Below, piece by piece: positions 29,290-44,275 of a stretch of DNA of 64,000 nt (its first letter is position 1; each line of letters opens with the position of its first letter). The stretch lies in NCBI GenBank assembly GCA_034687125.1, contig JAQGBZ010000096.1, positions 124,001 through 188,000 on the forward strand, written 5' to 3'. Source of the DNA: Neelides folsomi (lineage: Eukaryota > Arthropoda > Collembola > Neelipleona > Neelidae). The position numbers were made by a program, and so were the translations under genes. The notes below the pieces were generated by a model. That model saw only the letters and a list, made by a program, of their open reading frames with translations. It ran no database searches and was not told the DNA's origin.

Positions 29290-32200
29290 ATGGCGAGGCT
29301 AGGAATTATTTTCTTCGTCTTTACGACGGCTTTGATGGCGTCTGCATCAGGAGATAAATGCATCCTAATGGATTCCAAAGGTGAGTTAAAGTCAATTTAA
29401 CTATTTTTTTTACATCTTCTCTATTAATGTCATCTTAAACTTGGTTTAATGAAGGTCATAAATAAAGCATAAAGCTTTGCACCAAAAGCCCTTTGTTTTA
29501 AACGTTAACCTCTCAGAATATTTATACTTTTGTTTTTCACTTAAATGTATGCTAATGTAAAATGTGAAAGTAAATAAACAGAAGATCTCGATTTTCTTGA
29601 TGAGTCTAGGTCTAGAATAAAGGTCAAAGATGAACGTGGGCGAAACTTATTAACTCATCATTGTCATCATACAATGTCTGTATTATAATATAGGTAAATA
29701 AAATAAGTAAATAGTATGTACTTTGAAGACTGGTGTCATCCTCGTAGGTATTAATGACTGTTTCAATCTTTCAATGAAAATCTTTTCATTAAATTCAACA
29801 AACAAGCATCAGGCATGGGAAATCTCGACGATTTTCATTAAGCTTTATGTTTTGTAGGTTCGGCACATTTAATATTTGCATTACATGTTTTGGATGTGCT
29901 ACTCTACTACATACCATAACCATACTCAATTTAAGTACGTGTGTATTACATATATTTCATTTATTTCTATCTGTAATCTTTAAATGATTCCAACTAATTC
30001 TATCTCTTTGTTATACATTTATTTGAACTACAGTATAATAGAAAAGCTTTATTTGATTTCAACTCACTCAGAGTCAACATCAAAATTCACCAATTGATTA
30101 TTCACTAAAGACAAAGACATATGCCCTGCTAAATAGTATCTGTATTTACATGCAAAGGTTTGTATCTACAAATCTACAAATGTCTATGTCAATTTATTTA
30201 AATTATAGGTACCTACATGTACTCATGTATACCTATGTACATCTAATGTATGTATGTACTATGTACTTAATACACATAGTACATACCTGGATTTACTTTT
30301 ATTTAAGTAGCTTAAAAGCAAATGAAATTAAATGAGGAAGCATACTGTGTTTTGTTTTTCTAATTTGAAAGGATGTGGGTTTATTTTAAAGGAATCAAAT
30401 TAAAAGCAATTCATTAACGATTCATTGAATTTCCCCACGGGTAGGATTTAAAACTCAAGCGTCTACAATAATATTGCCAATTCTTGTATTTTAGAAGGAT
30501 CGGGTCCAAAGCGGTACTTTCAATTAGAGAACGATATCTTAAATATAACCATCGACTCGTCTGATGAAATCGGGCAGCTGCTGGTGACGAATATTTTCTC
30601 AATATTTCTTAAGGATGTGTTGAACTATCAATCAGTATCAATTAAAATACATCAGCTTTATCACGATACCGTTGTTCTCAAACGCCTTGTACCGCCAAAG
30701 AGGTAAGAATTTAAATTCATTTTCTATTGATTTTTTCTTAATATTATCTATTCAAGTACAATTCTAAGTATTTATATTTAACAATAATGATTATATAACA
30801 ATTTTAATAAATTTTTATAAATAGCAATTAGCAATATAACGGTTTTAAATTGTTGTTGGTGAGATATTTTATTAGGTTTAGTCGTTCTAACTAAAAGCAT
30901 GGAATTTTATTTTATTTTCAAAGCATGAATGACGACGAGCAGCATTCGTATCAACAAATCTCCCCTGAGCATCGTGAGAGTGAGAACAGGCTTCCAGAGG
31001 CAATGATAAACTTGGCCGTTCGTCTTACTCCCAAAGTAGAGGAGTTTGCGAACGATGACATCGGCCACTACAATATTGAGAACCGCGGACATTTGGGATA
31101 CCAGGGAAGGTAAATATTATCATTTCACTTCATTCCACACATCTTCCTCCTATCCCTTGCTTCATTACATTAAAAATAGAACCAATTAAAAAAACAATCT
31201 ATACTTAATATAAGAGGGAAATTCAAAGGGAAAGATGTGTGGAGATGGAGAAAGTCAATATGAGGTTTTTGTACATCAACCATAATGCTTTTCCTTAATG
31301 CTACTTTCTCCGCTTGTACAAACATCCCCTATAGCTTAATAGGAGTGTAATGAACTTCTCAATGTGACCTTCTGAATTATTCTCTAGATTTGGCTGGTTT
31401 ATCCCGAAAATGCCCGGAATTGAGAACCACCAGGCTCTCGACTACTGGAGAACTTACAAAGACTCCACGGAGGCTCTCGGTCTTTTCCAATTGCCAAGGG
31501 AGGACTACGAGAATGCGACCAAGCTGGCTTTCAATGGAACAAGGTGCCTATCTTAAACATTCTTTTCTCTGACCTTCCAACTTCGGGATAATTCTTGTTT
31601 ATTTAATCCTAAATGTCTTTACTGCTTTTACTCCACTAGCTCATATCCCTTATTTGGGCAATTAGGTAAAGGTAGAAATGCTACGGTTAGTTATATTTAA
31701 ATTCTCTAGTCAGAAGTTTTGTTTGTAGTCAAATATTAAATACACTTTTTAAATTTTGTTTAGTATTTGTTAAAAGCGAGTAGCATCATAGCATGTTAGT
31801 TTAATTCGTATTTAGGGGAAAATACAGGGATTTTTTAATTTATTTATCATAAAAACTCTTCATGGTTCTTTCATCAATTTAGAAAACTATGAAAAGGAAG
31901 AGTTTAATATTCTATAAAAGATGAGTATAAAACTTTATGAGTTTGCATCATAAACTAAAAACTGTTAAAATGGAGAATAAAATCTGATTTAATCTCTATA
32001 TTAAAAACGAACTGGGGAGGGAAAGTTTTAATCCAAAATTGAACGTAAAGATTTAAACCACGATGTCTTTTTGAAATTCCCTTTAATTAAATTCTTAGAT
32101 TAATCATTATTTGAATATCGGTTTATTAATGCTTATTTTAAATACTTTACGTAGTTATTACTGTCAAGAAGAATACTGTCAAGACGGCTTTTACAATCCT

Positions 32201-44200: not shown

Positions 44201-44275
44201 AAGGGATTCGCAGACACCAATTCGAATCAGCATTCTCCCTATGCGAGTCTCCAACATGAGAATAGTAATCTTTGA
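29290..44275 (+). CDS. VKR: Venus kinase receptor (Venus flytrap ectodomain + tyrosine kinase)
   Basis: Single-pass receptor tyrosine kinase of invertebrates. Family members bind amino acids or neuroparsin-type hormone through the Venus flytrap module. Exons: 29290-29380, 30495-30702, 30924-31109, 31388-31543, 32155-32282, 32457-32767, 33512-33752, 33832-33996, 36556-36709, 37047-37199, 37371-37398, 37972-38035, 38231-38281, 38440-38543, 38629-38788, 38966-39059, 39195-39301, 39432-39504, 39595-39804, 40180-40333, 40430-40471, 40960-41097, 41229-41262, 41709-41862, 42379-42491, 43323-43413, 43506-43622, 43894-44275; 1302 aa with every phase consistent. Seen: signal peptide about 1-20; Venus flytrap with [37 protein letters not shown] and [20 protein letters not shown]; many N-glycosylation sites; TM about 868-892; insulin-receptor-like kinase about 925-1190 with [39 protein letters not shown] and [12 protein letters not shown]; tail of about 110 aa ending [13 protein letters not shown]. 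The first activation-loop Tyr is Phe. Intron 24 has a GC donor. Confidence 0.95.
30250..30285. repeat. Short GTAC-rich palindrome in VKR intron 1
   Basis: GTATGTACTATGT is followed after about 9 nt by its perfect reverse complement ACATAGTACATAC. This could form a 13-bp stem. It lies in a patch of TACATGTA-like simple sequence in the first intron. Confidence 0.5.
35831..36317. mobile_element. Nonautonomous DNA transposon (MITE, Tc1/mariner-like) in VKR intron 8
   Basis: About 480 bp bounded by imperfect terminal inverted repeats of about 32 bp. The left end begins CCGGTTTGGTTCAAAATGTA at 35833; the right end reads GGGCTACATTTTGAATCAAA then CCG up to 36313. Subterminal direct repeats carry GAGCACGGGCTA on both sides. 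TA dinucleotides flank both ends (35831-35832 and 36316-36317), as expected for Tc1/mariner target-site duplication. There is no transposase reading frame. Family assignment is by TIR style only. Confidence 0.65.
36343..36438. mobile_element. Small MITE, copy 1 (VKR intron 8)
   Basis: Starts TTTGGGGCATTAATGTACAA and continues TATAGTA; the right end, read in reverse, is TTTGGGATTGGGACTATAGT. So it is a 96-bp element with imperfect terminal inverted repeats and no coding capacity. The left end is nearly identical to the start of the element at 53310 in another gene, which shows that it is a dispersed repeat. Confidence 0.5.

Follow-up and report, generated by a model that had tools for sequence, protein, structure and literature searches.

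Venus kinase receptors (VKRs), such as SmVKR1 and SmVKR2, AmVKR, AgVKR, AaVKR and SgVKR, consist of an ANF_receptor flytrap, one transmembrane helix and an insulin-receptor-like kinase. They are activated by amino acids, best by arginine, through the flytrap and act as dimers (PMC6401105, PMC4038586), and in Aedes the receptor is activated by the neuroparsin-type hormone OEH (PMC4522560). That an amino-acid-binding flytrap is also the receptor of this neurohormone in mosquitoes has been stated as a puzzle (PMC4522560). In flukes as well as in insects, VKRs govern the production of eggs, and they have been discussed as targets for the control of parasites and vectors (PMC4522560, PMC4038586). 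In the VKR literature consulted, the descriptions name the flytrap, the helix and the kinase; a ProX/OpuAC-like module at the beginning of the protein is not named. The window analysed in this work, a 64,000-nucleotide stretch of contig JAQGBZ010000096.1 of the collembolan Neelides folsomi, contains a gene at 29290–44275 on the + strand, which, with a probability of about three in four, encodes a VKR, that is, a single-pass cell-surface receptor tyrosine kinase, with two binding-protein-type modules in tandem outside the cell. The VKR family is known and this gene adds another genuine VKR to it; what is new here is the second, unnamed binding-type module in the ectodomain.

An earlier note on this DNA, made from the letters of the sequence, had described a 28-exon VKR gene with a product of 1302 amino acids (aa), and our independent exon-by-exon rebuild returned the identical coordinates and length. 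The note also proposed a Pfam search, which recovered both expected domains: ANF_receptor (PF01094) at aa 440–801 with E 2.8e-50 and tyrosine kinase (PF07714) at aa 934–1201 with E 6.7e-87, values that make chance matches untenable. The flytrap extends over about aa 418–824 (exons 7–18, 33683–39504), and its closest PDB sequence was GABA-B receptor subunit 1 (E 1.1e-44), in agreement with the reported kinship of VKR flytraps with GABA-B receptors (PMC2680970). The GABA-B receptors, which are class C G protein-coupled receptors (GPCRs), share this homologous flytrap but possess a seven-helix domain, whereas the Neelides protein has a single helix and a kinase. The only strong hydropathy peak between flytrap and kinase, with a mean of 2.9 in the best 19-residue window, marks the predicted transmembrane helix at about aa 868–892 (exon 19, 39722–39796).

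The flytrap also carries the residues published as VKR marks, namely C470, S500, R538-T539-I540, W559 and a motif of the GY(V/I)WFLPxWL type, which were located by sequence context and not by joint alignment; they stand for C35, S66, R107-T108-I109, W128 and the last motif of the published numbering (PMC3703292), except that this last motif ends in F here instead of L. The wild-type letters of the mutagenesis primer for Ser505 of the Anopheles VKR (PMC6401105) read as LGPACSETVEPIA, and the corresponding flytrap serine, Ser500, lies in the same LGPACS context. Altogether the motifs GYVWFLP, LGPACS, FRTI, HRDVACRN, YY and MSPE are shared with VKRs, and the locust VKR is of similar length (1277 aa vs. 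1302 aa). In exon number the gene differs from the VKRs of the 2013 gene table (PMC3703292), which have 5–21 exons: with its 28 exons, the Neelides gene is a complete and very intron-rich vkr, beyond the highest count listed there.

The kinase domain (aa 934–1201, exons 20–28, 40295–43969) had its best single-domain match among the PDB sequences in the Schistosoma VKR2 kinase (7zvs, E 8.2e-76), narrowly above IGF1R (E 1.1e-75), and the insulin receptors gave similar values. An EGFR chain (9p9u) held the top rank because it contains two kinase domains; as each of them scored 142 bits, less than VKR2 or IGF1R, the chain was rejected as the nearest kinase. In place of the full kinase tree proposed in the earlier note, a maximum likelihood quartet (LG+G4, 200 bootstraps) was calculated; it joined the Neelides kinase to VKR2 and separated both from IGF1R and EGFR with a bootstrap of 97, a grouping that involves four sequences and one known VKR. 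The kinase is 47.5% identical to VKR2; for IGF1R, compared over 277 positions, the identity is 45.1%. The insulin and IGF-1 receptors share the YY activation loop and much of the kinase sequence, but they have another ectodomain and a kinase to which the Neelides kinase is less close than to VKR2. No NPxY occurs in the cytoplasmic part of the Neelides protein, and its one YxxM lies inside the kinase domain. Identity as an insulin receptor was excluded by the ectodomain found with Pfam and by the kinase quartet. Considering the architecture, the published motifs and the quartet, the assignment to the VKR class holds, and by likeness to published VKRs it is plausible that the product is an active nutrient or hormone sensor, as had been supposed. 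The ectodomain, however, had been described as a single Venus flytrap; the flytrap is present, but a second, ProX/OpuAC-like module appears to precede it.

This module covers about aa 40–412 (exons 2 to part of 7, 30495–33667). The first approximately 390 residues of the protein appear to be a domain separate from the flytrap and related to the ProX/OpuAC glycine-betaine-binding proteins of bacterial ABC (ATP-binding cassette) transporters. The match to Pfam OpuAC had E 0.16 (12.0 bits) in the whole protein and E 0.022 (14.8 bits) for the region alone, while the C-terminal part of the module, at a cut chosen after seeing the match, gave E 0.0057 (16.7 bits). When the module was compared by tblastn with 7.3 Gb of plasmid sequence (72,556 records) at an E limit of 10, two matches were returned, both at loci encoding OpuAC proteins. 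The best one, from Nonomuraea gerenzanensis (E 7e-6, 22.6% identity), covered aa 155–412 of the protein (query 135–392), and its locus contains two tandem OpuAC copies (E 1.7e-45 and 6.4e-37) with a transporter permease gene upstream; the second, from a Rhizobium plasmid (E 0.05), lies at one OpuAC protein (E 2.9e-55) with an ABC ATPase gene downstream. A roughly reversed copy of the module had no match in the same plasmid search, and the module itself had none in the phage collection; when the whole ectodomain was compared with viral contigs, two stretches fitted a pattern and none was confirmed. The tandem OpuAC-type proteins of N. gerenzanensis (L118:2201–4056) are encoded behind one permease gene.

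Relatives of the Nonomuraea protein were then used for profile comparisons (543 plasmid records at 1e-5, of which 12 of the 60 listed were taken together with E. coli ProX). A hidden Markov model (HMM) of 13 bacterial proteins, from which both loci found with the window were left out, scored the module at 39.1 bits, while 1000 shuffles reached 5.7 bits at most. The HMM of all 16 proteins gave 61.2 bits against 6.6 for the best shuffle, and the one enlarged by 20 Firmicutes proteins (36 in total) gave 48.2 against 5.3. With hhalign, the module compared with 10 bacterial proteins yielded 96.4% over 143 columns, and the receptor's own flytrap 0.6%. In a splice-free test the HMMs were run over all 1403 open segments that the two strands of the window contain. 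Whichever HMM was used, the exon 6 segment ranked first, with E 1.2e-7 for the 16-protein model, 3.6e-5 for the 36-protein model and 0.0017 for the 13-protein model. The exon 7 segment took second place with the two larger models (E 0.025 for 16 proteins, 0.049 for 36); with the 13-protein model an unrelated segment (E 0.047) preceded it and it was third (E 0.11).

The support is not even along the module. MAFFT placed it as a whole, whereas hmmalign placed it only from about aa 290 on and hhalign covered only its C-terminal part. The ProX-like placement of aa 40–134 comes from the MAFFT alignment only, that of aa 135–176 from MAFFT and one weak HMM stretch (8.2 bits), and that of aa 155–412 is backed by the tblastn match. 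The likeness of the C-terminal two thirds of the module to ProX/OpuAC is thus well supported at the sequence level, and that of its start less so.

The module differs from its bacterial relatives in being part of an animal receptor, in its large insertions and in the betaine-binding site. The cage residues of E. coli ProX are 65, 140 and 188 of the mature protein. At the first cage column, where all 16 bacterial proteins have Trp, the Neelides module has a gap beside a VRLTP stretch; at the second, aromatic in 13 of the 16, it has Tyr215, and at the third, occupied by Trp in 13 and by Tyr in 3 bacterial proteins, it has Trp307. Directly after the second position there is an insertion of about 40 residues, which contains four cysteines (217, 222, 232 and 248). 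In bacterial OpuAC, betaine is held by three tryptophans (PMC2861598), and the cage of three aromatic residues for the quaternary ammonium group is incomplete in the Neelides module; hence, betaine binding of the bacterial type is doubtful. More probably the module docks another ligand, a hormone or a partner receptor.

Other VKRs seem to have room for such a module. The flytrap serine is residue 505 in the Anopheles VKR (PMC6401105), 466 in SmVKR1 and 410 in SmVKR2 (PMC4038586). Since the Neelides flytrap begins about 82 residues before Ser500, some 330–420 residues would precede the flytrap in these three receptors, and the Pfam OpuAC domain comprises 257 positions. In the 2013 gene table (PMC3703292) we counted 38 genes that have an entry; the first flytrap exon is exon 3 or a later one in 24 of them, exon 2 in another 12 and exon 1 in the remaining 2. 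These numbers suggest that the first module is widespread in the VKR family.

The most serious competitor of the double-module reading, which we consider possible but clearly less probable, is that the protein is a VKR with one working flytrap, in which the ProX-like part has neither a ligand nor a regulatory role and persists as a degenerate relic or serves as a rigid spacer. The loss of a cage tryptophan present in all 16 bacterial proteins agrees with this, as do the identity to bacterial proteins of about 23% at best (23.2% to the Nonomuraea protein over 271 aligned positions) and the published arginine activation, which needs only the flytrap serine. Two of the three cage positions are nevertheless aromatic, and judging by the residue number of the flytrap serine, a module of comparable position and length would fit into three further VKRs, which one would hardly expect of a relic without function.

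Several observations weigh against two tandem modules in a VKR. The Pfam scores of the first module remained below the curated cut-off of PF04069 (21.2 bits), and for this reason we call it a relative of OpuAC and not a member. No OpuAC match of the module was obtained in NCBIfam and PHROGs, and a phmmer search of the PDB sequences returned no OpuAC chain; the only PDB match, an AN1 zinc finger (E 0.27), was judged to be chance. BLASTP against E. coli ProX gave E 0.29. A profile rich in Lactobacillales scored 3.8–5.3 bits over four versions, with one of 200 shuffles scoring higher, and the more varied bacterial set was built after it; because that set was gathered via a protein found with the window, its profile scores are somewhat favoured. 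As to the remainder of the gene, the kinase scores are nearly equal (258.1 bits for VKR2 vs. 257.6 for IGF1R), among the introns of the model one is GC-AG and another has a weak donor, the splicing is predicted, and the function ascribed to the first module is putative.

The negative or weak searches with PDB, E. coli ProX, the Lactobacillales profile, NCBIfam and PHROGs, together with the Pfam score under the cut-off, could also mean that the N-terminal region is a VKR-specific fold that matched OpuAC by chance. We regard this as very improbable, as both matches of a 7.3 Gb search open to E 10 were OpuAC proteins, and neither the distance between 39.1 bits and the shuffles nor the hhalign result is what a chance likeness would be expected to give.

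It is still less probable that the model fuses two neighbouring genes, one for a secreted binding protein and one for a VKR or a kinase. The exons were placed by reading frame and splice sites, and the model was predicted from genomic sequence alone; the rebuilt frame opens with the ATG at 29290, closes with the TGA at 44273–44275 (3909 coding bases), contains no internal stop, and its phases agree at every exon junction, which speaks against a fusion. GT-AG borders were found in 26 of the 27 introns. Intron 24, which lies within the HRD motif, is GC-AG (donor AG/gcatga, position 41863) and has the sole non-GT donor, a point in favour of a misjoined model, and intron 13 has the weak donor (gttttc). 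In exon 7 (33512–33752) a single open frame, matched by the HMMs, passes from the C-terminal part of the ProX-like module into the start of the flytrap; the join of the two is independent of splicing, and a misjoining of neighbouring genes was rejected on account of this exon. That the sole hydrophobic helix follows the flytrap and precedes the kinase, the order found in VKRs, is likewise at odds with a fusion. Finally, a catalytically dead kinase in a receptor signalling by scaffolding only is hardly credible: kinase activity is predicted from motifs only, but the glycine loop (GxGxxGxV), the VAVK lysine (VAxK), HRDxxxRNxL, DFG, YY (1100–1101) and MSPE, all six of the VKR kinase list (PMC3703292), are present, as the earlier note had claimed of the catalytic motifs, and a pseudokinase was rejected on their account.

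Of the remaining parts of the protein, aa 1–20 (exon 1, 29290–29349) form a hydrophobic run in the translation that by eye resembles a signal peptide, and the C-terminal tail with the stop codon occupies 43970–44275 in exon 28. Intron 25 contains a short tandem array (42960–43012, period 16, 3.3 copies).

If the receptor with two tandem modules works like the published VKRs, it would be a dimer whose second module folds shut around an L-amino acid via Ser500 and Arg538. The closure would rearrange the dimer, Tyr1100 and Tyr1101 would be phosphorylated in trans, and the signal could be passed on through PI3K/Akt and MAPK during growth and egg production. The first module, at the membrane-distal end of the receptor, would be a domain for binding compatible solutes that has been remodelled. 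As part of the betaine cage is missing, two roles are more likely for it: a site of docking or regulation, for instance one to which a neuroparsin-type hormone attaches or at which the dimer partners touch, or the binding of another small ligand. An extension of this scheme, that VKRs as a family are double-flytrap receptors whose remodelled ProX/OpuAC-like module takes up a second input (a neuroparsin-type hormone or a small solute), is tentative and in our estimate rather unlikely. If true, it would explain the reported response to both arginine and a large neurohormone, and if nearly half of the ectodomain is an unnamed binding-type module, the OEH puzzle becomes testable.

In the literature searched, most subscription papers lying outside its scope, no paper combined “Venus kinase” with “OpuAC” or “betaine,” the pair “receptor tyrosine kinase” and “OpuAC” returned only a stachydrine review, and wider searches gave no paper joining VKR and OpuAC among the matches listed. 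The first module may be annotated in InterPro or elsewhere. An OpuAC domain as a receptor ectodomain has a parallel in the glutamate-family receptors of Allomyces (PMC3251606), but those are GPCRs and not kinases, and a second ANF_receptor flytrap is not mentioned in the part of that paper available.

The window has a G+C content of 31.4% and contains no Rfam match and no tRNA. Nine of ten nearby open segments compared with Pfam matched, and they belong to animal-type genes. Upstream of the VKR gene there are a multi-exon MRCK/Gek-like kinase on the − strand (1368–11033; protein kinase E 1e-25, MRCK-type PH 4.7e-8, CNH 2.5e-23), a seipin gene on the + strand (15514–17097; PF06775 E 1e-32 for segment 15927–16298) and a tektin gene on the + strand (18561–20271; PF03148 E 5.5e-31 for segment 19064–19633). 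Downstream, a sodium:neurotransmitter symporter lies on the − strand (47340–49013; PF00209 E 2.8e-25 for segment 48708–49013), followed on the + strand by a DOMON-domain protein (51735–54789; PF03351 E 3e-10 for 51735–51992), which by eye is perhaps monooxygenase-like and whose segment 54475–54789 had no Pfam match. A fragment of a rhodopsin-type seven-helix receptor was found at 59857–60267 on the − strand (PF00001 E 6.2e-15).

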